Shown piece by piece: positions 45,051 through 63,648 of a stretch of DNA of 64,000 bases. A program made the translations under genes and the position numbers. Origin of the DNA: Halohasta litorea (lineage in GTDB: Archaea; Halobacteriota; Halobacteria; Halobacteriales; Haloferacaceae); NCBI RefSeq assembly GCF_024494645.1, contig NZ_JANHDJ010000003.1:248001-312000 (forward strand), given 5' to 3'. A model generated the notes under the pieces. It saw only the letters and a list, made by a program, of their open reading frames with translations, was not told where the DNA came from and made no database searches. The stretch's first letter is position 1; each line of letters starts with the position of its first letter.

Positions 45051-46046
45051 ATGAAGAAACTGATCAACGATTCAGAGGCAGTCGTCGACGAAATGCTCGA
45101 TGGAATGCTTGCGGCCTACCCGGAGCAGCTTCGGCGGCTCGATGATACGGAGGTGATGGTACGGGCAGACGCTCCCGTCTCGGGCAAAGTCGGGATCGTC
45201 TCGGGCGGTGGCAGCGGCCACGAACCCACACACGCTGGCTTCATCGGCGACGGAATGTTGGACGGCGCAGCGGCGGGCGAAGTGTTCACCTCGCCGACGG
45301 CCGACCAGCTCAACGACATGATCGAAGCCTGTGATTCGGGCGAAGGCGTCCTCTGTGTGGTCAAAAACTACGAGGGCGACGTGATGAACTTCGAAACAGC
45401 AGGCGAGATGGCCGCCATGGAGGACATCGAGGTCAGGCAGGTCGTCGTCAACGACGACGTAGCTGTCGAGGACTCGCTGTATACGAGCGGCCGACGCGGC
45501 GTCGCCGGGACCATTTTCGTCCACAAAGTCGCCGGGGCAAAGGCCGCGGAGGGCGCGGAGCTCGACGAGGTCGAACGCGTCGCCAACAAGATGATCGACA
45601 ACGTGGCGACGATGGGCGTCGCGCTGACCTCGTGTGTGACACCCGATAAGGGAGAACCGACGTTCGATCTCCCGGACGACGAGATCGAACTCGGTATCGG
45701 TATCCACGGCGAGCCGGGCACCGAGCGTGTCGACATGATGAGCGCCGACGAGATCACCGACCACCTCACCGAGAAGGTCCTCGAAGATCTGGATCTCGAC
45801 GAGGGCCAGGAGATCCTCACACTCGTCAACGGAATGGGCGGCACCCCACAGTCGGAGCTGTTCATCCTCAACCGTCGGCTCCAGGAGGTCGTCTCCGACC
45901 ACGGCCTCGAAACCTGGGACGCGTGGGTCGGCGACTACATGACCTCGCTGGATATGATGGGCGCGTCGATCACCGTGGCGGCAGTCGACGAGGAGCTCAA
46001 AGAGCTGCTGTCCGCCGACGCCGACACGCCAGCACTCACAGTCTGA
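45051..46046 (+). CDS. dhaK: Dihydroxyacetone kinase, substrate-binding subunit
   Basis: 331 residues from the ATG at 45051. DhaK binds dihydroxyacetone through a covalent hemiaminal with a His; the segment IGIHGEPGTERVDM (about 224) has that His. The start KKLINDSEAVVDEMLDGML and SGGGSGHEPTHAGFIGDGML (about 51-70) are DhaK hallmarks. It receives phosphate from DhaL to form dihydroxyacetone phosphate. First gene of the dhaK-dhaL-dhaM run. A CATAATAG stretch lies about 25 bp upstream. Confidence 0.96.
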   Translation: MKKLINDSEAVVDEMLDGMLAAYPEQLRRLDDTEVMVRADAPVSGKVGIVSGGGSGHEPTHAGFIGDGMLDGAAAGEVFTSPTADQLNDMIEACDSGEGVLCVVKNYEGDVMNFETAGEMAAMEDIEVRQVVVNDDVAVEDSLYTSGRRGVAGTIFVHKVAGAKAAEGAELDEVERVANKMIDNVATMGVALTSCVTPDKGEPTFDLPDDEIELGIGIHGEPGTERVDMMSADEITDHLTEKVLEDLDLDEGQEILTLVNGMGGTPQSELFILNRRLQEVVSDHGLETWDAWVGDYMTSLDMMGASITVAAVDEELKELLSADADTPALTV

Positions 46047-46170
46047 GACGGCCAGCACACTCCCATTTTTCCGACAACTGCACGACCTGACACCGATACT
46101 GACAAGCAAGCCGACAAGTGCATGGTTTTTCGACACAAATACTTTGATGTTCGGGCGACTCTCCTACAAC

Positions 46171-46890
46171 ATGGTAGATGAACCAACACAGCAGGAGGCG
46201 ATCCGGGCAGCCGCCGAAGCAGTCGCCGACCGACTGGAGGACGAAAAAGAGTACCTGACCGAACTGGATTCGGCGATCGGTGACGCCGACCACGGCTCGA
46301 ACCTCGCACGCGGTTTCCGGGCAGCCGCGGATGCAGTCGCAGACGACGAGGAGTCGACGCCGGAGGAACTGGTCAAGAAGATCGGCGTCACACTGATCTC
46401 GAAGGTCGGTGGGGCCTCCGGGCCGCTGTACGGCGGCTCGATCATGAGCGCCAGCCAGACCTTCGAGGAGGGGGTGACCGCCGAGAGTTCGGTTGCGTTC
46501 GCGGAGGCCTATCTCGACAAGGTCAAAGACCGGGGCGACGCCCAGCTCGGCGCGAAGACGATGGTCGACGCGCTGACCCCGGCGGTCCACACATTTAAAA
46601 AGTCGATCGAGGTCGACGAACTGCCGCCGCTGACCGCCTTCGCCAAGGCCACTGCCGCCGCCGAGCGCGGCGTCGAGTACACGGTCCCGATCCGGGCACA
46701 GAAGGGCCGGGCCTCCTACCTCGGTTGGCGGTCGGTCGGCCACCAGGACCCCGGGGCGACCTCGACGTGGTTCATTATGCAGGAGCTCCTGGAGGTCGCC
46801 GACGACTACCTTGAGGGCGAAACCGACGTCGACGCGCGGTCGCCGACGATCCCCGAGGAGACACCCGACGAAGTCGAGGAGGAGGCGTGA
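46171..46890 (+). CDS. dhaL: Dihydroxyacetone kinase, ADP-binding subunit
   Basis: 239 residues from the ATG at 46171 (MVDEPTQQEAIRAAAEAV). DhaL holds a bound ADP that is phosphorylated by DhaM. DSAIGDADHGSNLARGF (about 31-47) has the two Asp and one His that bind Mg-ADP, and GGASGPLYGG is the nucleotide loop; DALTPAVHTF follows. An in-frame ATG at 46147 could extend it. It is followed at once by dhaM with a four-base overlap. There is a 124-bp gap after dhaK, so a second promoter is possible. Confidence 0.95.
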   Translation: MVDEPTQQEAIRAAAEAVADRLEDEKEYLTELDSAIGDADHGSNLARGFRAAADAVADDEESTPEELVKKIGVTLISKVGGASGPLYGGSIMSASQTFEEGVTAESSVAFAEAYLDKVKDRGDAQLGAKTMVDALTPAVHTFKKSIEVDELPPLTAFAKATAAAERGVEYTVPIRAQKGRASYLGWRSVGHQDPGATSTWFIMQELLEVADDYLEGETDVDARSPTIPEETPDEVEEEA

Positions 46891-47270
46891 TCGGACTCGT
46901 CGTGGTTTCTCACAGCCACAAGGCCGCCGAGGGGATCTGCGAGCTTGCCGCCCAGATGGGCGGCGATGCGCCCCTCGAACCCGCGGGTGGTGACGGCGAG
47001 GGCGGGATCGGCACCGACGCCAGCCGGATCGGCGACGCGATCGCGGCCGCCGACGACGGCGAGGGCGTGGTCGTCCTCGTCGACCTCGGCAGCGCGGTGA
47101 TGAACGCCGAACTCGCCATCGAGATGACCGAGGCCAACGCCACCATCGCCGACGCCCCGATCCTGGAGGGCGCGCTCAACGCCGCGGTCGAGGCGACAAA
47201 CGAGAAGGCGACCGTCGAGTCGGTCCTCGAAAAAGCCGAAGAGGCCCGCACCTACCGGAAGACCTCTTAA
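46887..47270 (+). CDS. dhaM: PTS-type dihydroxyacetone kinase phosphotransferase subunit
   Basis: 127 residues from a GTG start that overlaps the dhaL stop (GTGA). IIA-type (mannose-family) fold: IGLVVVSHSHKAAEGICELAAQMGG with the active His9, and VVVLVDLGSAVMNAELAIE later. It carries phosphate from HPr to DhaL-ADP. It is a single IIA domain, without the fused HPr and EI parts of E. coli DhaM, fitting the separate ptsH and ptsI genes just downstream. Confidence 0.95.
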   Translation: MIGLVVVSHSHKAAEGICELAAQMGGDAPLEPAGGDGEGGIGTDASRIGDAIAAADDGEGVVVLVDLGSAVMNAELAIEMTEANATIADAPILEGALNAAVEATNEKATVESVLEKAEEARTYRKTS

Positions 47271-47346: not shown

Positions 47347-49056
47347 TTATAAGCAGTCCTGAACCTCGGCGAGCGTGTCGGCCGCAAGCACCGACTCGGC
47401 CAGCGCGTCGGCAGCCTCGGTGTCGACCTCCTGGATCGCCGTTTTCACATCGGGGATCGTCACCGCGCTCATGCTGAGTTCGTCGAGGCCGAGTCCGACG
47501 AGGAGCTCGGTCAGCTCGGGATCACCGGCCATCTCGCCGCACATTCCGACCCACGCGCCGCCAGCGTGGCCCGCGGTGACGGTGCGGTCGATCGCCCGGA
47601 CGACCGCCGGAGCCAGCGGGTCCTGGTAGTCGGTCATCCGATCCAGATCGCGCTGGGCGCTCTGGATGTACTGGGTGAGGTCGTTGGTCCCGATCGAGAG
47701 GAAATCGACCCGTTCGGCGAAGGCGTCGGCCAGATACGTCGAGGCCGGGGTCTCGACCATCACGCCGAGTTCGGGAATCGCGTACTCGACGCCCTCACTC
47801 TCAAGGTCGTCGGCGACCTGCTCGACCTGTTCGAGGGCAGCCTCCAGCTCCTCGACCGTCGAGACCAGCGGGAACATCACTGCGAGCCCGGCCCCCGCAT
47901 CGGTGGCCGCGACGCGCAGGAGTGCTCGAAGCTGCGTCTCGAAGAGGTCGGCGTGTTCCTCCAAGGAGAGTCGAATCCCACGCGCGCCGAGGAAGCCGTT
48001 TTCCTCGGGGTCGAGATCCAGATAGTCGATGGGCTTGTCGCCGCCGACATCGAGCGTGCGGACGACGATCCGCGGCTCCTCGCCCGTGAGGCCTGCCGCG
48101 AAGGTCTCACAGACCTCGTGGTAGGCATCGTACTGCTCGTCCTCGTCGGGCGCCGCCGAGCGGTCCTGGAACAGGAACTCGGTCCGGAACAGGCCGACGC
48201 CGTCCGCACCGCGGTCGACCGCCGGTTCGGCCTCGACGGGCGTGCCGAGGTTGGCTGCGACCTCGATCTCGCGACCGTCGGCGGTCGCAACCGACTCCTC
48301 GACGACCGGTGTTTGGGTCGACTCGGCGGCTCGCTGGCGGGTCTCCTCGTCCGGCTCGGCGATCACGACGCCCGCCTCGCCGTCGACGACCACCTGCTGG
48401 CCATCCTCGATGGCGTCGAGCTCGTCGCCGATGCCGACAACCGCCGGAATCCCCAGCGAGCGGGCGATGATCGCGGCGTGGGCGGTTCGGCCGCCCTTGC
48501 TCGTCGCAATGCCGGTGATCGCCTCGGGGTCGAGCTGGGCCGTATCGCTGGGCGTCAGCATCTCCGCGAGGACGACCGACCCATCGGGCAGCGAGCCGAG
48601 ATCCGTGCGTTCGGTCCCCGTCAGCAGCCGAAGGAGCCGATCGCGGATATCCCGGAGATCGTCGGCGCGCTCGGCCATCATCCCGTCCATCCCCTCGAAC
48701 TGCTCGATAGGACCTTCGAAGGCCTCCATCACTGCGTGCGGGGCCGGAAGCCCATCGTCGAGGGCCGCCTCGACGCCGGACTCGATCTGTGGGTCCTCCA
48801 GGAACTTCAGGTGGGCGTCGAACACCGCCGCTTCATCGTCGCCCACGCGCTCGCGCGTCGACTCGCGTTCGGCCTCCAGTTCGGCGCGGGCGTCGGCCTG
48901 TGCCTCGTCGAATCGCTCGCGTTCGGCCGCGGCGTCGACGTCTTCGGCGGCTGGCGGCTCGTCGAGATCAGTGACATCGGTGGGGCGGTACCACGTCGCA
49001 GTGCCGATGCCGACGGTGGGTGTGGCACCGATCCCCTCGTAACGCCGTTCGGTCAC
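47347..49056 (-). CDS. ptsI: PTS enzyme I (PEP-protein phosphotransferase)
   Basis: 569 residues, normal EI length. It autophosphorylates from PEP and passes phosphate to HPr. The active His lies in SKGGRTAHAAIIARSLGIPAVVG (about 187-209). The C-terminal PEP-binding barrel has FRTEFLF, SIGTNDLTQY and GMCGEMAGDP with the active Cys. Its start overlaps the ptsH stop (ATGA). Together with dhaKLM it makes a complete PTS for dihydroxyacetone; no sugar EIIBC gene is near. Confidence 0.96.
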   Translation of the reverse strand: MTERRYEGIGATPTVGIGTATWYRPTDVTDLDEPPAAEDVDAAAERERFDEAQADARAELEAERESTRERVGDDEAAVFDAHLKFLEDPQIESGVEAALDDGLPAPHAVMEAFEGPIEQFEGMDGMMAERADDLRDIRDRLLRLLTGTERTDLGSLPDGSVVLAEMLTPSDTAQLDPEAITGIATSKGGRTAHAAIIARSLGIPAVVGIGDELDAIEDGQQVVVDGEAGVVIAEPDEETRQRAAESTQTPVVEESVATADGREIEVAANLGTPVEAEPAVDRGADGVGLFRTEFLFQDRSAAPDEDEQYDAYHEVCETFAAGLTGEEPRIVVRTLDVGGDKPIDYLDLDPEENGFLGARGIRLSLEEHADLFETQLRALLRVAATDAGAGLAVMFPLVSTVEELEAALEQVEQVADDLESEGVEYAIPELGVMVETPASTYLADAFAERVDFLSIGTNDLTQYIQSAQRDLDRMTDYQDPLAPAVVRAIDRTVTAGHAGGAWVGMCGEMAGDPELTELLVGLGLDELSMSAVTIPDVKTAIQEVDTEAADALAESVLAADTLAEVQDCL

Positions 49057-49343
49057 GGCAGCTCCATGTCGTCGAGTTCGTCTTCGGGTGTCGAGAGGAT
49101 CGCCTCAAGGGCATCGAGGGCGGCCTCGGCGTCGGGACCCTCGGCGACCAGCCGCACGTCGTCGCCGCCACGGACGCCGAGCCCCGTGACGCCGAGCATA
49201 CTATCGGCGGAGACGGCCGGGCGGTTGCCGTCGACTGCCTCGACGGTGACCTCGGCATCGAAGCTCCCCGCGGTCTCGACGAAGGTGGCTGCTGGGCGTG
49301 CGTGGAGTCCATCATCAGGGACGACAGTCAGGGTTCGTTCCAT
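49053..49343 (-). CDS. ptsH: PTS phosphocarrier protein HPr
   Basis: 96 residues. The active His motif VPDDGLHARPAATFVE gives His14. SADSMLGVTGLGVRGGDDV carries the conserved Ser region; the regulatory-Ser spacing is as in bacterial HPr, but no HPr kinase gene is known in the window. ptsH is upstream of ptsI in the same two-gene operon (four-base overlap). Transcription is toward dhaM, convergent. Confidence 0.95.
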   Translation of the reverse strand: MERTLTVVPDDGLHARPAATFVETAGSFDAEVTVEAVDGNRPAVSADSMLGVTGLGVRGGDDVRLVAEGPDAEAALDALEAILSTPEDELDDMELP

Positions 49344-49489: not shown

Positions 49490-52261
49490 CTATCGGCCGT
49501 TTTGGCTGTAGGATTCGAGCTGTCGTTCGACCCGGTTGGTGAGTCGTTCGAGTTCCGCTTCGACATCGCCGTCGACCATATCGGGGTAAGCCTCGCCGAC
49601 GAGCGTGCGGACCGTGCTGAAGGGGCCGATCCGCGCGCCGTTTGTCGCGGGGCTGTCCTTGCTTGAGAGCAGTTGGTCGATGGCGACCTTGTGGCCGGGG
49701 TTCTGCCGGAACCAGCCGTCACGGTCGAGCTGGTCGATCCCGCCCTCGTGGACCGGCAGGTAGCCGGTCTCGCGGTGCCAACGTGCCTGCTGTTCGGGCT
49801 GGGTGAGCCACGCGAGGAACTGGCCCGCGGCGTCCTGTTCTTTCTGGGAGGCCGACTCCGAGACCCACAGCGACGCCCCGCCGACGATGAGCCCCTCGCG
49901 TTGGCCGGGGGTGGGGAGGCCGCTGATGCCAACGTCGAAGTCCGCATCGCCGGTGATGCCGCCGAGCGACGACGAGGAGGCGATGACCATCGGCGCGGTG
50001 CCGTCGTGGAACGCGTTTTTGGCCTTCCCACGGGCCTCCATGCCGGGATTATGGTAGAGCCCCTCGCGGTCGAGGTTCGTCCACCAGCCGTAAATCTCCT
50101 GGGCGGCCTCGCTGTCGAAGTAGGCCTCGTCGGGCGTTCCGGCCCGGCCGTTCCGTTTGTTGACGATCTCCTGGCCCGCGGTTGCGAACCACTGCTCGAC
50201 GAACCACGAGTAGTTGGCGAAGGTAATGCCGTACTCCGCGACGCCCTGGTCGACGATCTGCTCGGCGGCCCGGGTGACCTCGTCGAACGTCGTCGGCGGG
50301 TTGTTCGGGTCGAGTCCGGCCTGTTGGAAGGCTCGTTTGTCGAAACAGAGCACAGGCACCGAGGAGTTGAACGGCATCGAGTTGAGCGTCCCGTTGGTTC
50401 GGTAGTAGCTCAAGACGGGATCGACGTAGTCGTTCAGCGAGACGTTGCGGGGTAACACGCCCTCAACAGGGGTGAACGCCCCGCTGTCCATCGCGCGGGC
50501 GGTGCCGATCTCGTAGATCTGCGCCAGCGCCGGGGCAGCCCCCTTCTCGGCGGCCGACATCGTCGATTCGAGCGTGCCGCGGTAGCTGCCCTTCGAGGTG
50601 GCGTTGATCTGGATGCCATCGGCCTGCTCTTCGAACTCACGGATGAGGTCTTCGAGCAACAGTCCCTTCTCGCCGCCCATCGCGTGCCAGAACTCGATGG
50701 ACGTGACGTTCGAGCCGACGGCGGTTCGTGATCGGGTATCGCGCAGCGTGTAGGAGTTGACCAGCGAGTCGAGGGTATCGACACGCTCGTCGAGAGTCGT
50801 CACACCGGTCGAGACCTCCGCCAGGGCGGTGGTCTGCTGTTCGGCGGCTGCTGCCGCGGTTTCGGAGCGCTCGGCAGTCTCGTCGGATATCTCGCCCACA
50901 TCGTCGACCATCGCGGCGGCCTCCTGGAGCGAGTTGGCCTGGCTGTCGGTCGCCTCGCTGATCTCCTGGACGCCGACGTTGGTCTCCTCGACGTCGTCGG
51001 CGATCTCGCGGAACGTCTCGACGGCACCCTCGATGGTGTCGACGCCGGCGTCGATCCGTTCGCGGGTCTCTTGCATCTCGTCTACGGTGGTATCGGCCTG
51101 CTCGCGGACGTTTCCAATCGAGGTCTCGATGTCGCCGGCGGCCTCCTCGGCGTCCTCGGCGAGGCTCTTGACCTCGTTGGCGACGACCGCGAAGCCTTCG
51201 CCCGCCTCACCGGCCCGGGCGGCCTCGATCGAGGCGTTGAGCGCGAGGATGTTGGTCTGGCTGGCGACCTCGCCGATGAACTCGGCGATATCCTCGATCT
51301 CCTCGATCAGCTCGTCGAGCTCCTCGGTCGCCTCCAGCGTTCGGCTGGTGCGGGTATCGATCTCGTCGAGTTCGGCCAGGGCGTTGGTCGCCAGCTCCCG
51401 GCCTTTTTCGCCGCGCTGGGCGGCCTGCTCGGAGGCCTCGGCGACCTCGTTGGCCGAGGAGGCGACCTCTTCGGTGGCGGCCGACAGCGACCGGATCTCG
51501 TTGGAGAGATCGTCGACCATCTCGTGTTGTTTGGCCGTATCGTCTGAGATCCCCGAGACGGAGTGGCTGACCTCCTTGCTTGCGGATTTGACCTCGTCGA
51601 CCCGGCCGGTGACGCGTTCGGTGGCCCCCTCGACCTGGTCGCCGAACTCGTCTACGGTCTGGATCGTATCCTCGAACTCATCGAGCATATGGTTGAACGC
51701 GTGGGCGACCTCGGCGGCGTTCGCGTCGTCGTGGTCGGCATCGAGCCGGACGGTGAGATCACCTTCCGCACACTGTTCCATCGCCGTCGAGAGCTGCGAG
51801 GAGAACTGCTGCCAGTCTACATCCGGTTCCGAGCCCCCGGCCGACGAGCGAGAGCCATCCTCATCGGAGAGATCGGAGTACTCGGAGCCGACCGGCTCCC
51901 CGCCGTCGGAGGCCGTCGAAACCCCAGCATCGACCGGTTCCGCCTCGACAGTCACTGGTTCGGTCGAGTCGGCGTCGGTATCTGATTCCGGTTCGGCCGT
52001 GGTATCGACTGCCGAGCGTCCACCCTCGTCGTCAGCCAACGGTTCAGACTTGTCGGATCGGTCATCGGAATCGCCGCCCCACGGTCTCGAAAACAGTCCG
52101 AAGAAGCCGAGGGCCGGTCCAACACCGACCGAGAAATCTGTGAGACTACTCCATCCGAGAAGAACAACGAGGAGTCCGATCACAGCAGCAGCACGCTCGA
52201 CCCGGTGCCAGCCGACACCGAAGGGACCGACCGTGTGACTGGCTCTCAGTTGTACACGCAT
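49490..52261 (-). CDS. Chemoreceptor (MCP) domain fused to C-terminal UgpB-type glycerol-3-phosphate binding domain
   Basis: 923 residues. A hydrophobic N-terminal segment (about 24-57) is one long or two short membrane helices. An acidic linker (60-148) leads to a HAMP-like region (150-205), then the methyl-accepting signalling hairpin (210-505) whose tip reads [19 protein letters not shown]. From about 520 the chain is a solute-binding protein of the UgpB type: [66 protein letters not shown]. From memory, UgpB residues contacting glycerol 3-phosphate (Tyr, Glu, Ser, Ser, Gly, Tyr, Arg) are all kept. No hydrophobic segment separates the domains, so the binding domain should be cytoplasmic. 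It lies among glycerol and dihydroxyacetone genes. Confidence 0.88.
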
Positions 52262-52346
52262 GTTGTGGAAAGTACCCGCATGGTTTAAATAAACTTGTGT
52301 TTCAAATTATCGTCTATGAAACTCATCCTCTCGGCCGCCGGACAGC

Positions 52347-53516
52347 TTAGCAGACCGAGGAGAGATAGCGAAACACGAGCGTGGGGAACCGGGGTTCGAG
52401 CCGCGAGGGTGGTCGGCCGACCCGCTCGGCGTCGTCGACTTTGAGGCGACGAACGATCCCTGCCTCGGCGAGCTCGTAGAGCACCCGTTCGGTCGTCGCC
52501 CGCGAGAGGTCCAGCCGGTCGTCGGCGATCCCATCGGCGGCCGCGCTGACGGAGTTGCGGTCGGTCTCCGGGAGGTCGACGAGCCGACACAACACCTGTT
52601 GGCGGCTTTCGGGGAGGGACAACACCCGCCCCAGCGAAACGGAGGGCCGTGGGACGGCGTCCATCCCCGCGGCGAGGTCGTCGGGGCCGATCTGTTCGTG
52701 GCCGTTGTCGTCGGCGATCAGTCCGGCGCTGAACAGCGCCGCCAGGGCGTCGTGGCTGTCGCCGTCGGCCCACGCGGCGATCTCCCGGAGCTGTTCGTGT
52801 GTGACTGCGGCCCTGGTGAGACCGTCCGTCTGTCGGCTCGTCAGGATCTCGATCAGCGTGTGGCGGCGATAGGGACCGAACCGGACCGTTTCGGGGTCGT
52901 TTAGGAGTTCCGCCACCGCATCGGGTTCGTCGTGACCGGCGAGCACGGTCGAGACCGACGTGCTGAACCCATCGAACTGGTCGCAGACGGTTTCGACCGA
53001 CAGCGTCTCGGGCTCGCCGACGTGGTCGACCGCAACCACGACCGACTGGCCGTCGACCGACAGGCGGTCGGCCAACCGGGTTCGGATCGTCTCGGCACCG
53101 ACCCCCTGTTTGGGCACTGGGTCGGTGGTGAGACTGTTGAGAACGGTATGCGCCAGCGCGAAGCCGGTTTTGGCCTGTCGGCCATCGACGTAGACGAAGG
53201 CGATGTCCGTTGTGGGCTCCGCGCGCGTAGTAGTATATATACGACCGGTGGAGCGACCGATCAGCCGATCGAGATGAGTAAACAGCGCGCGGATGACGGC
53301 GGATTTCCCGGTGCCTTTCGGCCCCCAGACGTAGCAGTCGCTCGGCAGCCGACCGGCGAAAGCCGGGTTGAGGATATCGAGCAGCTGCTCGATCACGAGC
53401 CCGCGGCCGGTCGGCTCGGTGGGGTGGGCGATCGGATTCAACGCATCGGATTCACGCACCAAGCGTGGCTCGTGGTCGGTCTGCTGGCGTCGGAGGATGC
53501 GCTCTTCGATGTTCAT
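52347..53516 (-). CDS. Orc1/Cdc6-like ATPase with altered Walker B
   Basis: 389 residues. The AAA+ start GRGLVIEQLLDILNPAFAGRLPSDCYVWGPKGTGKSAVIRAL has an intact Walker A (65-72). Walker B reads VVVAVDHVGE (159-168) where replication initiators have Asp-Glu, so ATP hydrolysis may be changed. A winged-helix C-terminus follows (RATTERVLYELAEAGIVRRLKVDD). It belongs to the many divergent Cdc6 paralogues of haloarchaea. I see no origin repeats beside it, so an origin role is not supported. It sits between the MCP-UgpB gene and the glycerol membrane protein, same strand, without obvious link. Confidence 0.83.
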   Translation of the reverse strand: MNIEERILRRQQTDHEPRLVRESDALNPIAHPTEPTGRGLVIEQLLDILNPAFAGRLPSDCYVWGPKGTGKSAVIRALFTHLDRLIGRSTGRIYTTTRAEPTTDIAFVYVDGRQAKTGFALAHTVLNSLTTDPVPKQGVGAETIRTRLADRLSVDGQSVVVAVDHVGEPETLSVETVCDQFDGFSTSVSTVLAGHDEPDAVAELLNDPETVRFGPYRRHTLIEILTSRQTDGLTRAAVTHEQLREIAAWADGDSHDALAALFSAGLIADDNGHEQIGPDDLAAGMDAVPRPSVSLGRVLSLPESRQQVLCRLVDLPETDRNSVSAAADGIADDRLDLSRATTERVLYELAEAGIVRRLKVDDAERVGRPPSRLEPRFPTLVFRYLSSVC

Positions 53517-53674: not shown

Positions 53675-54667
53675 TTAGAGCCCGAGCGCGCTGATCGGGG
53701 CCCAGAACGTACCACCCAGCACACCGGCGGCGGTCAGGGCTGCCGAGAGCAGACCGGACAAGGCGATAGCGAACGCCGGCGGGTCAACGTGGGTCTTGCC
53801 GTGCATGTAGAACACACGGTTACAGACCTCACCCATGACAGCGCCGAAGAGGCCGAACAGTCCACCGACGATGAGCACGAGCGCCGGGTCGTAGCCCGCT
53901 GCGCCCGCACCGAGTGCACCGACCGAGCCGGGCAGCGTGATGTGGTGGGTGACCGGGATGTTATCGACACCGGCCTGCAGGAACACGAGGGTGGCCGCGC
54001 TGATACCGAAGCTCAGCGTGGTGCTGCCGGTTGCCTGCCACAGGAAGCCACCGAGGATACCGCCGATGAGACCGAGGAACGCGACGTTACCCCATTTGTA
54101 CTGCCATCCGAGCCAGATACCGGGTGCGTCGTCCTCGTCGCGCTCCCACGGACCGACATCGAACAGACCGCTACCGGTGACCTCGCCGATGACGCTGTAT
54201 CCGAACGCAACACGGTGGATGAGTGCGGAGATGAACACCATCAAGGCGATGTTGTCAGTCGGGAATCCGATGAGGTTGAGCGTCGACGTGCCTGCGTGAC
54301 CGATGAGACCGAAGACCGCACCGACCATCAGCACGTCGATGTGGTTGGTTCCGGCCGCCCACAGGATATTCTTTCCGTCGTCGATGTAGCCCTGTTTAGC
54401 TGCGTAGGCGGCCGCTGCGGCACCGCCCGCGAACGCAATGTGCGGACCAAAGACCGGACCGAAGCCGATCATTCCCGTAAAGGAACTGCCACTGTCGACG
54501 ATCTCCTCTCCGGCGAGACCCAGAGCCTCACCGGCGATGACTACGAAGCCGGTGAAGATGAAGGATGGCAGTGCACCGATGGCTGCTCCGAAGGCACCGC
54601 CAGCGAAGGCGGTGATCCACATCGTCGGGTCAGTAAGCATTGCCATCTGAAGGACAGTTGCCGACAT
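53675..54667 (-). CDS. Putative glycerol-permeation membrane protein of the haloarchaeal glp locus
   Basis: 330 residues, about nine or ten hydrophobic helices, small-residue rich (GGAFGAAIGALPSF, FGPVFGPHIAFAGGAAAAAYA). It lacks the two NPA motifs of aquaglyceroporins, so it is not a classic GlpF. Its start overlaps the glpK stop by one base (TAATG), a strong sign of common function. In Haloferax volcanii, as I recall, a similar membrane gene next to glpK has been called a putative glycerol facilitator (glpX in that locus). Glycerol entry is likely, but direct evidence is absent. Confidence 0.75.
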   Translation of the reverse strand: MSATVLQMAMLTDPTMWITAFAGGAFGAAIGALPSFIFTGFVVIAGEALGLAGEEIVDSGSSFTGMIGFGPVFGPHIAFAGGAAAAAYAAKQGYIDDGKNILWAAGTNHIDVLMVGAVFGLIGHAGTSTLNLIGFPTDNIALMVFISALIHRVAFGYSVIGEVTGSGLFDVGPWERDEDDAPGIWLGWQYKWGNVAFLGLIGGILGGFLWQATGSTTLSFGISAATLVFLQAGVDNIPVTHHITLPGSVGALGAGAAGYDPALVLIVGGLFGLFGAVMGEVCNRVFYMHGKTHVDPPAFAIALSGLLSAALTAAGVLGGTFWAPISALGL

Positions 54668-56202
54668 TATTCACCACCGTCCTGTGCCCAGTCTTCCGAA
54701 CGCTCGACGGCGTCCTTCCAGCGGTCGTAGTTGACTTCGATGTCGGCGTCCTCGTCGATCTCGAAGGATCGATCGATCTGCCAGTTGTTACGCAGCTCGT
54801 CGACGGTGTCCCAGTAGCCGACTGCGAGACCGGCGGCGTAGGCCGAACCCAGCGCGGTCGTCTCGTCGACGACCGGGCGGACGATCTCCGTGCCGATGAT
54901 GTTGGCCTGGAGCTGACAGAGGAAGTTGTTCTTGACTGCGCCACCGTCGACACGGAGGCTTGCCAGGTCGATGTCTGCGTCCTCGACCATCGCCTCGGCG
55001 ACGTCTTTCGTCTGGTAGGCGATGGATTCGAGGGTCGCGCGAACGACGTGCTCGCGTCGGGTACCACGCGTCATGCCGACGATGGTACCGCGGGCTCGCT
55101 GATCCCAGTGGGGTGCACCGAGACCGGCGAAGGCGGGCACGACGTAGACGCCGTCCGTGGAGTCGACGCTACGTGCGAGACTCTCGGATTCGGCGGCGTC
55201 CTCGATGAGGGTCATGTCTTCGAGCCACTCGATGGCGGCACCGGTGATGAAGATCGAGCCTTCGAGGGCGTACTGGACGGGCTCACCCGAGCGCTGGAAG
55301 CCGATCGTGGTGAGGAGACCGTGTTCCGAGGGAACGGCCTCGTTACCGGTGTTCATCAGCATGAACGAACCGGTACCGTAGGTGTTCTTCGCGTCGCCTG
55401 CGTCGAAACAGGTCTGACCGAAGAGGGCGGCCTGCTGGTCACCGAGCGCGCCCGCGACGGGCACTTCGGCACCGAGGAAGCCGTCCGGATCGGTGGAACC
55501 GTAGGTCTCGTCGTCCGAGGACGGACGGACTTCCGGCACCATCGCCTTGGGCACGTTGAACAGGTCGAGCAGTTCGTCGTCCCATTCGAGCTCGCGGATG
55601 TTGTACAGCATCGTCCGCGAGGCGTTCGAGACATCCGTGATGTGGTTACCCGTGAGGTTGTAGATGACCCACGTGTCGATCGTCCCCATCAGGAGTTCGC
55701 CTTCTTCGGCGCGCTCGCGGACGTCCTGTGGTCGGGATCGCTGGAGCTTGATCGGGTCGGCGTTGTCGAGGATCCACTCGGTCTTGGTCGCCGAGAAGTA
55801 GGCGTCACATTCGAGACCCGTTTTCTCACGGATGTCCTCGACTTTGCCCATCTCCTGGATCTCTTCGACTCGATCCGTGGTTCGCCGGTCCTGCCAGACC
55901 AGTGCGTTGTGGACTGGTTTGCCGGTCTCGGCGTCCCACACGATCGTGGTCTCTCGCTGGTTGGTGACACCGATGGCTTCGAGCTGCTCGGCGTCGAGGC
56001 CCTCCTCGTCGAGAGCCGTGTTGATTACCGACTTCGTGTTCTCCCAAATCTCCATCGGGTCGTGCTCGACCCAACCGGGCTCGGGGTAGATCTGCTCGTG
56101 TTTCTCATATGCGTTTGCAACGACGTTACCACCATGGTCGAAGACCATGAACCGCGTTCCTGTAGTCCCTTGATCGATGGAACCAACGTATGTTTCTGAC
56201 AT
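54667..56202 (-). CDS. glpK: Glycerol kinase
   Basis: 511 residues, full length. ATP-dependent glycerol phosphorylation to glycerol 3-phosphate. FGGY-kinase motifs are present: IDQGTTGTRFMVFDHGG at the N-terminus, DRRTTDRVEEI and, in the C-terminal half, RVDGGAVKNNFLCQLQANI and SAYAAGLAVG. It is the first gene of a leftward pair with the putative permeation protein and is divergent from glpABC. The 273-bp intergenic region carries two palindromes that may be operators. Confidence 0.97.
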   Translation of the reverse strand: MSETYVGSIDQGTTGTRFMVFDHGGNVVANAYEKHEQIYPEPGWVEHDPMEIWENTKSVINTALDEEGLDAEQLEAIGVTNQRETTIVWDAETGKPVHNALVWQDRRTTDRVEEIQEMGKVEDIREKTGLECDAYFSATKTEWILDNADPIKLQRSRPQDVRERAEEGELLMGTIDTWVIYNLTGNHITDVSNASRTMLYNIRELEWDDELLDLFNVPKAMVPEVRPSSDDETYGSTDPDGFLGAEVPVAGALGDQQAALFGQTCFDAGDAKNTYGTGSFMLMNTGNEAVPSEHGLLTTIGFQRSGEPVQYALEGSIFITGAAIEWLEDMTLIEDAAESESLARSVDSTDGVYVVPAFAGLGAPHWDQRARGTIVGMTRGTRREHVVRATLESIAYQTKDVAEAMVEDADIDLASLRVDGGAVKNNFLCQLQANIIGTEIVRPVVDETTALGSAYAAGLAVGYWDTVDELRNNWQIDRSFEIDEDADIEVNYDRWKDAVERSEDWAQDGGE

Positions 56203-56312: not shown

Positions 56313-56475
56313 CTCTTGTACCCATAATTGTCCTTAATATACATGGGAGTATGCCATCCTTTAGCACGATTTGGTGGTCTATTTGTTGTGTTGTTTAATA
56401 TACATGAAGAATTTACGCGAACCGGACGAGTAGGGGTAAAGTAAAGTTACTATAGTGCAAAACCCAATTGAACGG

Positions 56476-58218
56476 ATGAGTAACAAGCCACACGTTGTCG
56501 TCATTGGGGGCGGTTCCACGGGGACTGGGATCGCACGTGACCTCGCTATGCGGGGCCTCGAGGTCACTCTCGTCGAACAGGGGAACCTCACCCATGGGAC
56601 AACAGGACGAATGCACGGACTCCTGCACAGCGGCGGTCGGTATGCGGTTGCCGACCAGATTGCTGCCGAAGAGTGTATCGACGAAAACCGAATTCTACGG
56701 GATATCGCCAGCCACTGTGTCGAGATGACCGGTGGGCTGTTCGTCAAGCGACCCGAAGACACCGAGGAGTACTTCCAGAAGAAACTGGAGGGCTGCAAGG
56801 AGTGCAACATTCCCGCCGAGGTGTTGTCGGCCGAAGAGGCCCGCGAAATCGAGCCGTATCTCGCCAAAGATATCGACAAGGCGATCAAGGTACCTGACGG
56901 CGCGATTGACCCCTTCCGGCTCTGTGTGGCCAACGCCGCCAGCGCCGAGGAACACGGCGCGCGAATCGAGACCCACGCGCCCGTGGTCGACATCCTCAAA
57001 GAGGACGGCGAGGTCGTCGGCGTCGAGGTCGAACACGAGACGGGCCCGGGCAAGCGCGTCCACCGTGAGCCTGGCACGCGCGAGGAGATACGCGGAGACT
57101 ACGTCGTCAACGCCACCGGCGCATGGGCCGGTCGGATCGGCGAGATGGCAGGCCTCGAAAAAGAAATCCAAGTCCGCCCCGGCAAAGGCGTGATGACGAT
57201 TATGAACACCCGACAGGTCGACACCGTCGTCAACCGGTGTAAGCCGAAAGGCGACGCCGACATCGTCGTCCCACACGAGACGACCGCGATTTTGGGCACC
57301 ACGGACGTCGAGGTCGACGATCCGGAGGACTACCCCGAAGAGCAGTGGGAGGTCGATCTGATGATCGACACCCTCTCCGAACTCGTGCCGATTCTCAAGG
57401 AGGCCCGGACGATTCGCTCCTTCTGGGGCGTCCGACCGCTGTACGAGCCGCCGGACACCGGCACAAGTGACTCGACGGACATCACCCGGCGGTACTTCCT
57501 GCTCGACCACGAGGAGCGGGACAACGTCAACGGGATGACGTCCATCGTCGGCGGGAAATTCACCACCTACCGACTGATGGCCGAGGAGATCTCCGACCAC
57601 GTCTGTGAGAAGTTCGGGATCGACGCCGAGTGTGAGACCGACACGACGCCGCTGCCCGGCAGTGAGGACTTCTCGGTGCTCGACAACTACATGGAGCAGT
57701 ACGGAATCCGCTCGCCGATCGGTCGGCGGAGCACCCAGCGGCTCGGCTCTCGGACCGACGAAGTGCTCGATTACGACGGCCCGAACCCGACCGTGTGTGA
57801 GTGTGAAGCCGTCACGCGCGCCGAGATCCAAGACGGGATCGAGGGCGCGGGATCGGATCTCAACGCGGTCCGACTTCGCACGCGCGGCTCGATGGGCAAC
57901 TGTCAGGGGGCCTTCTGTTGTCACCGGATGGCCGCCGAGCTGTACGACGAGTACGACGAGACGATCGCCTACGACGCGTGGGACGAACTCTACCAGGAGC
58001 GCTGGAAGGGCGAACGCCACGCGCTGTGGGGCACCCAGCTCTCGCAGGCAGCCCTGAAATACTCGCTGCACGCAACGACGATGAACCGAGACAAGGACGC
58101 CGCAACCACCGATTCGGTGGTCGACTTTGCGGCCTTCGACAGCGGGACCGCAGCCGGTGGGTCCGGTGGGACAACTGGTACTGCCGCAACCGATGGCGGC
58201 CGACGGGAGGATGAGTAG
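56476..58218 (+). CDS. glpA: Anaerobic-type glycerol-3-phosphate dehydrogenase subunit A
   Basis: 580 residues from the ATG at 56476 ([18 protein letters not shown]); a GTG at 56455 is an alternative. It oxidises glycerol 3-phosphate to dihydroxyacetone phosphate with FAD. The FAD motif [17 protein letters not shown] is at the start. The C-terminus has a BFD-like [2Fe-2S] module: [17 protein letters not shown] and [12 protein letters not shown]. GlpB starts 2 bp after it. In haloarchaea (gpdABC) this is the main catabolic glycerol-3-phosphate dehydrogenase. Confidence 0.95.
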
Positions 58219-58220
58219 CC

Positions 58221-59519
58221 GTGGCGATCCGTGAGGACGTGATCGTGATCGGCGGCGGACTCGCTGGCTCGGTTGCAGCCATCGAGGCTGCCGAAACCGG
58301 TGCCTCCGTACGGCTTGTTACCTACAAAAAGAGCACCCTCCGACACGCCAGCGGCCTGATCGACGTGCTGGGATACAACGGGTCGGACGACCCGATCGCC
58401 GACCCCTTCGCCGCGCTCGACGACCTCCCCGACGAGCATCCCTACAGCGTCGCCGGTGAGACGGCCGTCCGCGACGGCCTCGACCGGTTCGACGAGATCG
58501 TCGGCGACACCTATGGGGGCAGCCACACCGATTCCAACGCGCTGATCCCGACCTTCGGCGGCACGGTTAAACCGACCGCGCGGTATCCCGCCGCGGCGGC
58601 CGCCGGAATCGCCAGCGACGACCGGCCCATGCTCGTGGTCGGCTTCGAGGGCATGACCGAGTACAACGCCGGGATGCTTGCGGACCACCTGGAGGCTTCG
58701 GGCGTCCCGTTCGATGTCGAGGGCGTCGAATGCTCGCTGCCGGGAACCTACAAGAACGACTCCCGCGTGACGCGGTTCGCCAAACGGCTCGATATCAACG
58801 AAAGCGTCGAGTACGAGGGCCGGACCATGGGCGCACGCGAGGCATTGATCCAGGAGGTCGAACCACACGTCGGCGACGCCGAGCGGGTCGGCTTCCCGGC
58901 CTTTTTGGGCGACGAACACACCGACGAGGTGCGCAACGACCTCGAACGCGAACTCGGCGTCGACGTCTTCGAGATCCCGATGGGTCCGCCGAGCTACCCC
59001 GGTATCCGGCTGGCTGACCAGCTCAAAACGGCAGTCGACGAGGCGGGCGTCCGCATTACTGCCGGGAGTCCGGTCGTCGGCTTCGAGGCCGATGACGGCG
59101 AAATCCAGTCGGTGACCGTCGACAGCAAGGGTCGAGAGGTACCGTACCACGCCGAGGAGTTCGTGCTGGCAACGGGTGGACTGGTCGGCAAAGGAATCGA
59201 TTCAGGTCGGGAAGAAGGTGTGACCGAGTCGATCTTCGACTGTCACATCCCCCATCCGGAGGACCGCTACGAGTGGTTTGACGAGCAGGCCTTCGGCGAC
59301 CAGCCGTTCGCCCACTTCGGCGTCCGGGTCGACGAGACGATGCGACCGCTGACGGCCGACGACGTCCCGGAGTTCGATAACCTCCGGGCCGCAGGCGGGG
59401 TGATCGGTGGGGCCGATACGGTTGCGGAAAAATCACAGAGCGGTGTCTCGCTGGCGACGGCGGTCGTCGCCGGTGAACGGGCTGGCGAGCAGGTAGCGAA
59501 ACACGAGGTGAGCCAATGA
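58221..59519 (+). CDS. glpB: Anaerobic-type glycerol-3-phosphate dehydrogenase subunit B
   Basis: 432 residues from a GTG start (AIREDVIVIGGGLAGSVAAIEAAE), 2 bp after the glpA stop. An FAD/FMN-binding subunit: the N-terminal GGGLAGS motif and a C-terminal GLVGKGIDSGREEGVTE. It mediates electron flow from GlpA to GlpC. Its stop overlaps the glpC start (ATGA), so glpA-glpB-glpC is one tight operon. Confidence 0.94.
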   Translation: MAIREDVIVIGGGLAGSVAAIEAAETGASVRLVTYKKSTLRHASGLIDVLGYNGSDDPIADPFAALDDLPDEHPYSVAGETAVRDGLDRFDEIVGDTYGGSHTDSNALIPTFGGTVKPTARYPAAAAAGIASDDRPMLVVGFEGMTEYNAGMLADHLEASGVPFDVEGVECSLPGTYKNDSRVTRFAKRLDINESVEYEGRTMGAREALIQEVEPHVGDAERVGFPAFLGDEHTDEVRNDLERELGVDVFEIPMGPPSYPGIRLADQLKTAVDEAGVRITAGSPVVGFEADDGEIQSVTVDSKGREVPYHAEEFVLATGGLVGKGIDSGREEGVTESIFDCHIPHPEDRYEWFDEQAFGDQPFAHFGVRVDETMRPLTADDVPEFDNLRAAGGVIGGADTVAEKSQSGVSLATAVVAGERAGEQVAKHEVSQ

Positions 59520-60823
59520 GCGACGCAGAACAAGCAAGCGATTTCGATCCAACGACGACGGTAGATGAGTTCGAGCCGGTAGACGTCTTCCCCTCCAGCG
59601 AGGACATGGACCTCCGGCCCGGAGCCGACAACTGTTACAAATGCACGAGCTGTGACACGTCGTGTCCGGTGGCCGAAGTAGACGAGTCCTTCCCCGGACC
59701 GAAGTTCCAAGGGCCCGAACAGTGGCGGCTCAAACGCGGCGAGGACGTCGACATCGACGACTCGATCCTCTCGTGTTCGAACTGTATGCGGTGTGACGAC
59801 GCCTGTCCGTCGTCGGTCCCACTGAGCCAGATGCACAACACCGCACGCGGGGAGTACGTCGAAGAGCACATGGACAAGCTCTCCCGAGAGTACCTCCGCA
59901 ACCGGATGCTGTCGAACTACCGGACGCTGGCCTCCATCGGGAGCAAGGTCCCACGGCTCGCGAACTTCGTGATGGGACTCGGCATCACCAGCGTCCTCGG
60001 CGAGAAGATCATGGGGATTCCCAGCGAGCGCGACGTGCCGGAGTTCGCCACCGAGACCTTCCGCCAGTGGTTCAAGAAGCGCGGCGGCTCGAAGGTCACC
60101 AACCCGGACAAACAGGTCGCCTACTTCCACGGCTGTTACTCCAACTACAACACCGTCGAGGTCGGCAAGGCGATGGTCCGGGTCTTCGAGGAGTTCGGCT
60201 ACGAAGTGCTGGTGCCCAAACAGCAGTGTTCCGGCACCCCGATGTTCGCCAACGGTATGCTGAAGGACGCCCGCCGCGAGGCGGAGGTCAACGTCCGCGA
60301 ACTCGGCAAAGCGATCGACAACGGCGCGGACGTCATCGCTTCCTGTACCTCCTGTTCGATGGCGCTCCGTCAGGAGTACCCCGAACTGTTCGACATCGAG
60401 GGGATCGAGGACCTCTCGGAACACACTTACGAGGCCATGGAGTTCCTCCGCATCCACGAGGACCTGGAGGGAACCATTCGGGAGTCGGAAGTCGACCCGC
60501 AGGCCTTCGCCTACCACGCGCCGTGTCACGCCCGGAATCAGGGCCTCGACCGCCAGGCGGTCGAACTGTTCCGCGAACTCGACGGCGCACAGATCGAAGA
60601 CGTCGGCGACTCCTGTTCCGGAATTTCGGGCACCTACGGCTGGAAGTCCGAGAAGTACGAGACCTCGATGAAGATCGGCGCAGAGATGTTCGATCACATG
60701 GAACACGCCGAGGGTGACGTGGGGATGACCGAGTGTCCGACCTGTGCGATGCAGATGAACCACGGGACGGGCTACGAGATCCGCCACCCCCTCGAACTGC
60801 TCGAAGAAGCCGTCGCCAACTAA
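59516..60823 (+). CDS. glpC: Anaerobic-type glycerol-3-phosphate dehydrogenase subunit C
   Basis: 435 residues. Two 4Fe-4S ferredoxin motifs, CYKCTSCDTSCPV (about 40-52) and CSNCMRCDDACPS (about 83-95), then two CCG-type domains including QQCSGTPMF, CTSCS, APCHARNQG and SCSGISGTYG. It passes electrons from GlpAB to the membrane quinone pool. No membrane helix is visible; it probably docks through the amphipathic C-terminal region. Start overlaps glpB by ATGA. Confidence 0.94.
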   Translation: MSDAEQASDFDPTTTVDEFEPVDVFPSSEDMDLRPGADNCYKCTSCDTSCPVAEVDESFPGPKFQGPEQWRLKRGEDVDIDDSILSCSNCMRCDDACPSSVPLSQMHNTARGEYVEEHMDKLSREYLRNRMLSNYRTLASIGSKVPRLANFVMGLGITSVLGEKIMGIPSERDVPEFATETFRQWFKKRGGSKVTNPDKQVAYFHGCYSNYNTVEVGKAMVRVFEEFGYEVLVPKQQCSGTPMFANGMLKDARREAEVNVRELGKAIDNGADVIASCTSCSMALRQEYPELFDIEGIEDLSEHTYEAMEFLRIHEDLEGTIRESEVDPQAFAYHAPCHARNQGLDRQAVELFRELDGAQIEDVGDSCSGISGTYGWKSEKYETSMKIGAEMFDHMEHAEGDVGMTECPTCAMQMNHGTGYEIRHPLELLEEAVAN

Positions 60824-61116
60824 CCCCTCCACGCGTTTGGTCTCCCGTGTTCTCTCGTCACCAACCGACAGCGACCGCTCTCGGACCCAGTAGCCGCAGA
60901 CTACCGTCGACCGAACAGACCAGTAGGTATTGCCTACGCCAGTACCCACCCCGCGACGGCAGCCGTGAAGAATCAGTATACTCCCTTACTCACAATCTGT
61001 GTCTGTATATATGACAACAGCCAAACGGAGAGTAACAAGGTCCAAACGACCGTTGGTATCGGTATCCCTACCTATGCGGTAAAAATTATTATTTGTATTA
61101 CAGTCTGCCATCGAGT
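60824..61116. other. Intergenic region after glpC, AT-rich right half
   Basis: About 290 bp. The left part holds the inverted repeat copy at 60888 and CAGTAGGTATTGCCTACGC, a second weak palindrome (60921-60939). The right part (about 60970-61116) is AT-rich and probably holds the promoter of the beta-helix gene. No gene was recognised. Confidence 0.5.
60888..60905. repeat. Dispersed hairpin repeat, inverted copy after glpC
   Basis: Its reverse complement, GGTAGTCTGCGGCTACTG, matches GTAGTCGNCGGCTACTGG except for one base. It lies about 65 bp after the glpC stop, a terminator-like position. Confidence 0.7.
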
Positions 61117-62241
61117 ATGGTTTCAGACCAGATGGGAGACAGTCCCGAGACGTCACCGGGCCGTAGTCGACGATCCTACCTCAGCCTCGTTGGCGGCCTC
61201 GTAGCCGCTGGAGGCCTCAGCACGTCGGCTGCAGCCCGGACGCCAGCCGAGACAGTCGACCTCGCGGATCAGGGACTGACTACCGGCGAGCTAATCGATC
61301 CTTACTTGACGGAGTTCTTCGTCGACGGCGCGACCGTCGAGATACCGGCAGGGAGCTACAAGTGGGACGGCGAAGGGTTCGAAGGAGCTACCGAGAACGC
61401 GGCCGTCATCGGGCAGGGTGACGTTAACCTCGAACTAACGGGCGATTCGTTCCGCAACAACATCCGCGCGGAGGCCGGAACCATCGAACTTCGAAACTTT
61501 ACGGTTCACGGGATTGTCAGCGAGAAATCCCATTTCCGCCTGGAGACCGCCGAGGGGGCGACGATCATCGCCGACGGGCTCGATTTCCCCGATGGCGCAG
61601 TCGACGAAAGCGAGTGTCGGCCGTTTTACGTCCCGCGTGAGCACGCGGGGACGGTCGACATCCGCAACTGCTCGTTCAGCAGCTTTTCGGACAACGGGAT
61701 CTATGCCTCATCGCCGGGGTACGACGACGGGGCTGGTGGACGCGTGCTGATCGAGAACTGTGTCGCCCACAATATCAACATCGCAGCCATCCGGGTCGGC
61801 TCCAGCGGGAGCGTCGTGCGGAACTGTCTCATCGTCAACGATGGCCCAGCGCCGAAAAGCGAGACCGAGCAGCGAAATATGCGCGGGATTCGGGTCCGGA
61901 ATCCGGGCGATGACATCCGGATTGAGGACTGTGAGATCATCATGCGCCACGATGAGACGGGGGCGCCGATCCAGATCCACGAGGAGGCCGAAGGTGGAAG
62001 CGGAACGATCAGCAACGTGACGATCAGTAACGACACCGACTCCGAGGCGATCAACGAGGGCGACGACGCCGCAGCCGACTGGGAGGTTTCGGATGTCGAA
62101 ATCAGGGGTTCCGGCGATCTGAGCTACCCCGAAAGCTTCGAGTCAGTCTGTACGGGTGAGTCCTGTGAGCCACCGACAACCGACGTCGACAGACGAACAC
62201 GGGAAATTCTATCTTCGGATATCACCCCGTCGATTAGATAA
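61117..62241 (+). CDS. Tat-exported right-handed beta-helix protein
   Basis: 374 residues from the ATG at 61117 (MVSDQMGDSPETSPGRSRRSYLSL); an ATG at 61132 is possible. The twin-arginine signal SRRSYLSLVGGLVAAGG ends near TSAAARTP. The body shows recurring beta-helix turns of the pectate-lyase type: IELRNFTVHGI, VDIRNCSFSSFSDNGIYAS, VLIENCVAHNINIAAIRV, IRIEDCEIIMRHDE, TISNVTISNDTD. No catalytic residues of a known lyase were recognised. Extracellular or surface-attached; polysaccharide binding or cutting is only a guess. It lies between glpC and the glpA paralogue. Confidence 0.8.
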   Translation: MVSDQMGDSPETSPGRSRRSYLSLVGGLVAAGGLSTSAAARTPAETVDLADQGLTTGELIDPYLTEFFVDGATVEIPAGSYKWDGEGFEGATENAAVIGQGDVNLELTGDSFRNNIRAEAGTIELRNFTVHGIVSEKSHFRLETAEGATIIADGLDFPDGAVDESECRPFYVPREHAGTVDIRNCSFSSFSDNGIYASSPGYDDGAGGRVLIENCVAHNINIAAIRVGSSGSVVRNCLIVNDGPAPKSETEQRNMRGIRVRNPGDDIRIEDCEIIMRHDETGAPIQIHEEAEGGSGTISNVTISNDTDSEAINEGDDAAADWEVSDVEIRGSGDLSYPESFESVCTGESCEPPTTDVDRRTREILSSDITPSIR

Positions 62242-62350: not shown

Positions 62351-62379
62351 GGAGGTCCCGTGATCCGAGGAATGAACAC

Positions 62380-63648
62380 ATGACACACCAAACAACCGTA
62401 CTCGTTATCGGCGGTGGCGGAACCGGCGTCGGAACTGCACGCGATCTGTCCGCCCGCGGCGTCGACGTCACGCTGGTCGAGCGGGATGGACTGGCTGGTG
62501 GCACCACAGGGCGTTCTCACGGCCTGCTCCACAGCGGCGCGCGGTACGCCGAATCCGACCCAGAGGGCGCGGCCGAATGCATCGAGGAAAACCAGATCAT
62601 CCGAGAGATCGGCGGTCACTGTATCGGTGACACCGGCGGAATCTTCGTCCAGCTGGAGGAGGACGATCCCGAGTACTTCGAGGCGAAACTGGAAGGGTGT
62701 CAGGAACACGGTATTCCGGCCGAGGTCATCGACGGCGACGAGGCCCGCGATCGGGTGCCCGAACTCTCCGAAGACGTCGTCCGGGCGATGGTCGTCCCCG
62801 ACGGCGTCATCTACCCCTCGCGGCTCGTCGCCGCGAACGCCGCCAGTGCCGAAGCCCACGGCGCGACGGTGTTGACACACGCACCAGTCGAGGCGATTAC
62901 CGTTAGCGACGGCGTGATCTCCAGCGTCGAGGTCGGCGGCGAGGTCAACGAGACCATCGAGGCAGAGTACGTCGTCAACGCCACCGGCGCGTGGGCCGGG
63001 GAGTGTGCCGCAATGGCCGGGGTCGACGTCGAAATGCAGCCGACCAAGGGCGTGATGGTCGGCGTCGACTACGAGGGGCTCGGCCCCGTTGTCAACCGCT
63101 GTCGGGTCCCCGACGACGGCGACATCATCATCCCCCACGAGACGCAGGTCGTCCTCGGGACGACGAGCGTGGCGGTCGACGATCCCGACGAGTTCGACGA
63201 AGAAGGGTGGGAGGTCGAAAAGATGTTCCAGGAGTGCGCCGATATGATGCCAGCGCTCGACGGCCGGGAGATCGCCCGCACCTGGTGGGGCGTCCGGCCG
63301 CTGTATGCGCCCGACGAGGCCGGTCGCGGGAGCCGCGACTCCGGGAAAGGCGACGAGCGGGGCATCTCGCGTGGCTTCTTCCTCCTGGATCACGAGCAGG
63401 ATGGCGTCGAGAACTTCGCCAGCGTCGTCGGCGGCAAGCTGACGACCTACCGGATGATGGCCGAAGCCGTCGCCGACCACGTCGCCGACGTACTGGGCGT
63501 CGACGGCGAGTCGATCACCGCGACCGAACAGCTTCCAGGAGCCGACGACCCCGACCGACTCGACGAGTTCGTCGCGAAGTACAGCGCCCGCCAACCGGCC
63601 GATCTGGATGTCGTCGAGGACCGCAGCGGACAGGTAGCCGACGACTAA
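62380..63648 (+). CDS. GlpA paralogue without the C-terminal Fe-S domain
   Basis: 422 residues from the ATG at 62380 (MTHQTTVLVIGGGGTGVG). Clearly a GlpA-type FAD oxidoreductase: FAD loop GGGGTGVGTARDLSARGVDV, then TTGRSHGLLHSGARYAESDP and [10 protein letters not shown], as in glpA. It ends about 160 residues earlier and lacks the Cys-rich BFD-like module, so electrons must leave by another route. No glpB or glpC copy follows. It may dehydrogenate glycerol 3-phosphate or a related polyol phosphate. It has its own AT-rich promoter region. Confidence 0.88.
   Translation: MTHQTTVLVIGGGGTGVGTARDLSARGVDVTLVERDGLAGGTTGRSHGLLHSGARYAESDPEGAAECIEENQIIREIGGHCIGDTGGIFVQLEEDDPEYFEAKLEGCQEHGIPAEVIDGDEARDRVPELSEDVVRAMVVPDGVIYPSRLVAANAASAEAHGATVLTHAPVEAITVSDGVISSVEVGGEVNETIEAEYVVNATGAWAGECAAMAGVDVEMQPTKGVMVGVDYEGLGPVVNRCRVPDDGDIIIPHETQVVLGTTSVAVDDPDEFDEEGWEVEKMFQECADMMPALDGREIARTWWGVRPLYAPDEAGRGSRDSGKGDERGISRGFFLLDHEQDGVENFASVVGGKLTTYRMMAEAVADHVADVLGVDGESITATEQLPGADDPDRLDEFVAKYSARQPADLDVVEDRSGQVADD

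Follow-up and report, generated by a model that had tools for sequence, protein, structure and literature searches.

A haloarchaeal chemoreceptor with a UgpB-type binding domain behind its signalling hairpin, predicted to read an intracellular glycerophosphate

The window analysed here (64,000 nucleotides of the Halohasta litorea genome) carries on its reverse strand a gene (49490..52261, ATG start) for a protein of 923 residues in which a chemoreceptor (MCP) signalling hairpin is followed by a binding domain with the fold of UgpB. The assignment draws on Pfam and NCBIfam models, a PDB sequence search and AlphaFold prediction. We read the protein as a chemoreceptor for an intracellular metabolite, with a UgpB-fold sensor for glycerol-3-phosphate (G3P) or a close glycerophosphate placed behind the MCP hairpin, and give this reading a probability of about 0.6. 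Counting the Halohasta protein, 63 distinct fused open reading frames were collected; the 62 others are intact and come from 13 genera.

Domain order and predicted fold

A Pfam scan of the protein identified MCPsignal at residues 278-457 (3e-41) and SBP_bac_8 at residues 539-839 (2e-40). They are preceded by a HAMP-like segment (residues 156-197; 51671..51796, reverse strand) that scores below the cut-off (E 1e-4). No Cache match was found in the same scan. The signalling hairpin (50755..51724, reverse strand; Pfam and AlphaFold) has an intact tip at about residues 350-355, with a conserved stretch of 18 residues, and methylation-like sequence motifs on both of its long arms (residues 260 and 470). 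By every feature tested the fusion is an MCP. A flexible linker (about residues 503-518; 50709..50754, reverse strand; pLDDT below 50 at 508-516) without hydrophobic stretch leads to the UgpB-type domain (residues 518-923; 49493..50710, reverse strand), for which the evidence is the PDB search, the ligand contacts, the domain model and structure alignment. An AT-rich TATA-like box, read by eye about 25 bases 5' of the ATG (52280..52294, reverse strand), suggests that the gene has its own promoter and a leaderless transcript.

The full-length AlphaFold model consists of two very long helices (180-350 and 355-502), the linker and a complete two-lobed UgpB fold from residue 519. Since its pTM is 0.50, the relative placement of the domains was not used. 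The sequence-only reading had placed the binding domain C-terminal to the hairpin, the reverse of the normal order, and both the model and the Pfam order HAMP-MCPsignal-SBP_bac_8 agree with it. Modelled alone, the binding domain reaches a mean pLDDT of 95. Structure alignment of the predicted domain confirms the UgpB fold on which its superposition had been proposed: it matches 6x84, an E. coli UgpB entry carrying W169S/W172S, with Z 51.3 over 402 residues at 1.6 A rmsd, followed by 4aq4 (Z 46.6) and Phaeobacter 9lff (Z 45.4). M. tuberculosis UgpB and other CUT1 proteins come next, at Z 40 or below. The PDB sequence search gave the same first relatives (4aq4, 4.8e-60, then 9lff).

UgpB is also the top NCBIfam model for the C-terminal part (9e-71), at a score (238.7 bits) below the equivalog cut-off of 411. 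The likeness to the E. coli (4aq4/6x84) and Phaeobacter (9lff) proteins thus extends over about 400 residues (Z 45-51) and eight of nine ligand contacts. However, the fused domain sits behind an MCP in the cytoplasm, has neither signal peptide nor adjoining ugp transporter genes, lacks Trp169 and scores below the equivalog cut-off. With no export signal, an incomplete Trp clamp and a score short of the equivalog level, the fused domain falls outside the UgpB family of transporter proteins.

Ligand pocket and gene setting

The pocket was mapped from the published G1P and G3P contacts of Phaeobacter UgpB (PMC12718374). The phosphate contacts correspond to Y560, S634, S762 and Y834 of the fusion, the hydroxyl (diol) contacts to E584, G795 and R885, and the second Trp of the UgpB clamp is kept as W686. 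These eight of the nine contacts are invariant in the query and in 62/62 other fusions. The ninth (E. coli Trp169, Phaeobacter Trp188) is N683 in the query and Asn (52/62) or Thr (10/62) in the others; the first Trp is lost and the clamp is incomplete in every fusion. The sequence-only reading had described the G3P contacts as kept. All those it listed are indeed present, but Trp169 was left out of its list. This residue is reported to be essential for G3P binding in E. coli UgpB, and M. tuberculosis UgpB, with Leu at this position, bound glycerophosphocholine and not G3P (PMC7034087). Moreover, UgpB pockets take G1P as well as G3P without separating them (PMC12718374). The proposal of G3P as the ligand is therefore sustained in part: the phosphate and diol contacts and the glycerol-gene setting agree with it, whereas the Trp tied to G3P binding is missing. 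With that position lost, G1P, DHAP and glycerophosphodiesters are to be counted among the candidate ligands.

Asn at the Trp169 position is shared with free haloarchaeal UgpB homologues and is therefore older than the fusion. The adjoining Y684, found in 62/62 fusions and in 0/48 free proteins, might supply the missing ring. One group of free haloarchaeal paralogues (L113, L114, L125, L126) has changed two contacts, Glu to Ser and Arg to Gln, suggesting another ligand; pocket conservation in the fusions is thus not automatic. L058, another free homologue that has this Asn, lies ahead of ugpA-, ugpE- and ugpC-like genes and is flanked by a GDPD-like gene (families assigned by eye), a setting that agrees with a glycerophosphate as ligand without pointing to any one of them.

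In the window the gene order is dhaKLM / ptsI-ptsH - fusion - AAA - glpX - glpK / glpABC, as the sequence-only reading had described for the pts, dha and glp genes. The dihydroxyacetone kinase genes dhaK, dhaL and dhaM (45051..47270, forward strand) precede ptsI (EI; 47347..49056) and ptsH (HPr; 49053..49343), both on the reverse strand like the fusion. Beyond it, also on the reverse strand, lie genes for an AAA/Cdc6-like protein conserved in the glp cluster (52347..53516; AAA_16 and Cdc6_lid in Pfam), for a conserved hydrophobic membrane protein (53675..54667; glpX in the gene order) and for the glycerol kinase GlpK (54667..56202; FGGY N and C domains), which makes G3P. The membrane protein has no Pfam match and is a likely transport partner in glycerol uptake, possibly a glycerol channel. 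On the forward strand, glpA, glpB and glpC (56455..60823) encode the glycerol-3-phosphate dehydrogenase that consumes G3P. In Halohasta, Halonotius, Haloarcula, Halomicrobium and one Haloferax, the AAA/Cdc6-like ATPase is found together with glpK and glpX. The presence of an Orc1-like protein among glycerol genes points to an as yet undescribed regulator. Further along the window, a right-handed beta-helix protein (61111-62238) precedes a second GlpA-like oxidoreductase (62374-63648), and both also adjoin glpC in G003 (L167).

Clusters of the window type were found in Halohasta, Halonotius and G011, and in G031, where the contig end cuts it. In Haloarcula and Halomicrobium the fusion is relocated: it starts about 580 bases from a divergent glpA and ends about 140 bases 5' of glpK, on the same strand. 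Two further gene orders occur in G282 and in one Haloferax (G213). In total, the fusion is linked to glp or dha genes in 8/13 genera. With the chance for each genus put roughly at 0.8%, this corresponds to about 2e-14, a value that over-estimates the significance because genera share ancestry. The existence of several different gene orders argues for selection. Orphan copies, away from glp genes, are found in Halorubrum, most Haloferax and the Halobiforma group. The sequence-only reading had called for a check of co-occurrence with glp genes; as linkage on the chromosome, it holds for the majority of genera but not for these.

In an even draw of 323 genomes from the order, 48 carry the fusion, a genome being counted if it has an SBP match with E <1e-110 within an open frame no shorter than 540 residues. 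All 48 have glpK, as against 272/323 overall (Fisher p 1e-4), an association that is weak at genus level and when relatedness is considered, since glpK is common in the order. All 48 also have CheA (Fisher p 1e-7), scored as H-kinase_dim: 46 at E 1e-5, while G000 and G003 exceed the Pfam cut-off in a looser search. CheA of the Halohasta genome itself is over the Pfam cut-off. A homologue search of this genome revealed no other UgpB homologue, and a Ugp transporter partner was accordingly rejected; internal G3P should come mainly from GlpK.

The same receptor might bind another ligand, for instance DHAP, a glycerophosphodiester released in lipid turnover, or G1P as the precursor of the archaeal lipid backbone. 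Its signal would then concern triose flux or the lipid or phosphate state of the cell, and not the uptake of glycerol. The Asn or Thr in place of Trp169, the ligand of the M. tuberculosis protein, the G1P binding of UgpB and the surroundings of L058 all favour this reading. It is opposed by the glp/dha linkage, by the invariance of the two residues that grip the free diol (Glu584 and Arg885), and by Tyr684 if it does replace the ring. We consider such a ligand unlikely, although it is a serious alternative. The fusion is best read as a cytoplasmic chemoreceptor for a small glycerophosphate, of which G3P made by GlpK is the most likely.

A second alternative retains glycerol phosphate as the signal but replaces motility as the output by gene regulation or the tuning of receptor arrays, for instance together with the AAA/Cdc6-like protein, or takes its input from HPr and EI of the PTS. 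The AAA/Cdc6-like gene does travel with the glp cluster, and in Halohasta and Halonotius ptsHI directly adjoins the fusion. However, the Haloarcula copies have no ptsHI in their vicinity and the orphan copies no adjoining AAA gene; the tip and hairpin of the MCP and its methylation-like motifs are all preserved, and CheA is present in all 48 fusion genomes. This possibility appears improbable to us.

Topology and ancestry

By hydropathy, the only TM-like segment of the fusion lies near residues 20-45 (52126..52204, reverse strand), where AlphaFold places a helix (19-40, pLDDT about 60); it is a probable membrane anchor. From residue 150 to the C-terminus the highest 19-residue window reaches 0.84 on the Kyte-Doolittle scale, and the best window of the linker 0.39. 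A hidden TM segment ahead of the binding domain was rejected on these values, and the claim that nothing hydrophobic separates MCP and binding domain stands. None of the 63 fused frames shows a clear TM segment after the MCP start by hydropathy, the highest value (1.57) being located inside the binding domain of L104. The N-terminal hydrophobic segment is confined to the Halohasta/Halonotius/G011 branch; among the 63 fusions, no N-terminal segment outside this branch reaches the TM threshold, and most relatives look fully soluble. Free haloarchaeal UgpB homologues carry signal-peptide or lipobox starts, whereas the fused domain has neither.

The MCP tip must contact CheA inside the cell. Since no membrane pass separates the binding domain from the hairpin, and most relatives have no membrane segment at all, the working side of the domain is the cytoplasm, as the sequence-only reading had proposed. 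In the Halohasta branch, despite the N-terminal helix, MCP and binding domain would still both face inward. Export through an unrecognised signal or membrane pass, which would make the domain an ordinary tethered binding protein, is very improbable: UgpB domains are normally extracytoplasmic and the Halohasta branch has its N-terminal helix, but the absence of hydrophobic segments past residue 150 in any fusion, the soluble relatives and the position of CheA speak against it.

The search for other MCP-SBP fusions of the same order thus returned 62, in haloarchaea. A related-locus search located fusions in Halohasta, Halonotius, Halobiforma, Halomicrobium, Haloarcula, Halorubrum and Haloferax. 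In the tree of binding domains, the fused ones group in one clade (SH-aLRT 98) that lies among the free haloarchaeal UgpB homologues, and the fused MCP halves likewise group in one clade (97) when compared with the other MCPs of the Halohasta genome. The two clades are most simply explained by one ancient fusion event. Among Halohasta relatives, each half has a dN of about 0.03-0.12 and a dS of about 0.4-1.1, values that indicate purifying selection on both; the N-terminal linker is loosely conserved. An assembly or annotation artefact joining two genes, of which one MAG (L062) with the halves in different frames might be reminiscent, can be dismissed in view of the 62 intact fusions in 13 genera, their single clade per half and the selection across both.

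Broken or partial copies were observed in L062, in L053 and, near glpK, in genome G251, with split frames or a domain matched in part; they are MAG or draft errors, or decay. An apparent glpK-MCP fusion of 2402 residues in L022 was rejected as it spans a scaffold run of N. UgpB-like domains also occur in 760-residue frames with one in-frame TGA in G060 (C1:304459-305664) and G101 (C6:48934-50139), possibly another domain combination. UgpB-like proteins of the halophilic Halanaerobiales (L063, L068-L071, L073) rank with the nearest relatives that the binding domain has in bacteria, which hints at transfer between organisms living in brines.

Proposed mechanism and relation to known systems

In the mechanism that we propose, glycerol would enter the cell, GlpK would convert it to G3P and GlpABC would remove the product. 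G3P or a close glycerophosphate would bind in the cleft of the cytoplasmic domain and close it, and the short linker would pass this closure on to the base of the coiled coil of the MCP. CheA activity would change, the archaellum would be biased and the cell would swim toward places of greater glycerol burning. Fold, orientation, contacts and gene setting are observed; the ligand, the sign of the response and the coupling are putative. Periplasmic-type domains usually bind at about micromolar affinity; cytoplasmic G3P might saturate such a domain, which counts against its use as a G3P gauge. Archaea build their lipids on a G1P backbone (PMC12718374), so G3P should for the most part reflect the breakdown of glycerol. 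The most specific version, in which a binding fold captured once from a haloarchaeal Ugp protein and turned inward became a cytoplasmic G3P gauge driving glycerol-metabolism chemotaxis across haloarchaea, is tentative, and we would place it somewhat short of an even chance.

Several known systems share parts of this design. Car (Htr11) of Halobacterium salinarum is a cytoplasmic arginine transducer (PMC3579733), likewise a haloarchaeal reader of an intracellular metabolite but with another sensed compound. In the same genus, BasT and CosT are fed by the external binding proteins BasB and CosB (PMC3579733); they too link haloarchaeal chemotaxis to substrate-binding proteins, which there are separate and outside, whereas the fusion is one polypeptide, inside. 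PacP (sCache_PC3), described in plant-associated bacteria in 2025 as the first chemoreceptor family for phosphorylated compounds, senses G3P and other C3 phosphates (PMC12395807); its sCache ligand-binding domain is unrelated to the UgpB fold. M. tuberculosis UgpB (6r1b, 4mfi) resembles the fused domain in its fold, its phosphate contacts and the absence of Trp169, but is a transporter lipoprotein that binds glycerophosphocholine.

A 2022 census of archaeal MCPs lists SBP_bac among the ligand-binding domain types and C-terminal ligand-binding domains in some cytoplasmic MCPs (PMC9680633). The MCP-SBP pairing may therefore have been counted before, although the main text of the census gives no ligand, gene setting or function for these proteins. 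Our literature search found no paper pairing MCPsignal with SBP_bac_8, but an earlier description in reviews of cytoplasmic receptors or signalling binding proteins is possible; no paper on haloarchaeal glycerol taxis was found either. While its parts and principles have precedents in Car, UgpB and PacP, the inverted intracellular UgpB-MCP architecture is a new variation on them.

In brines, the glycerol made by Dunaliella is considered a principal source of carbon, and the literature search revealed no described haloarchaeal receptor for it. If our reading is correct, a binding-protein fold moved inside the cell and wired to an MCP would be a simple molecular case of metabolism-dependent taxis, and a second chemoreceptor solution for phosphorylated compounds, unrelated to PacP and intracellular. 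The spread and setting of the fusion suggest that many haloarchaea may steer by reading their own glycerol breakdown product, a case of metabolism-dependent taxis that would be testable in cultured Haloarcula and Haloferax species.
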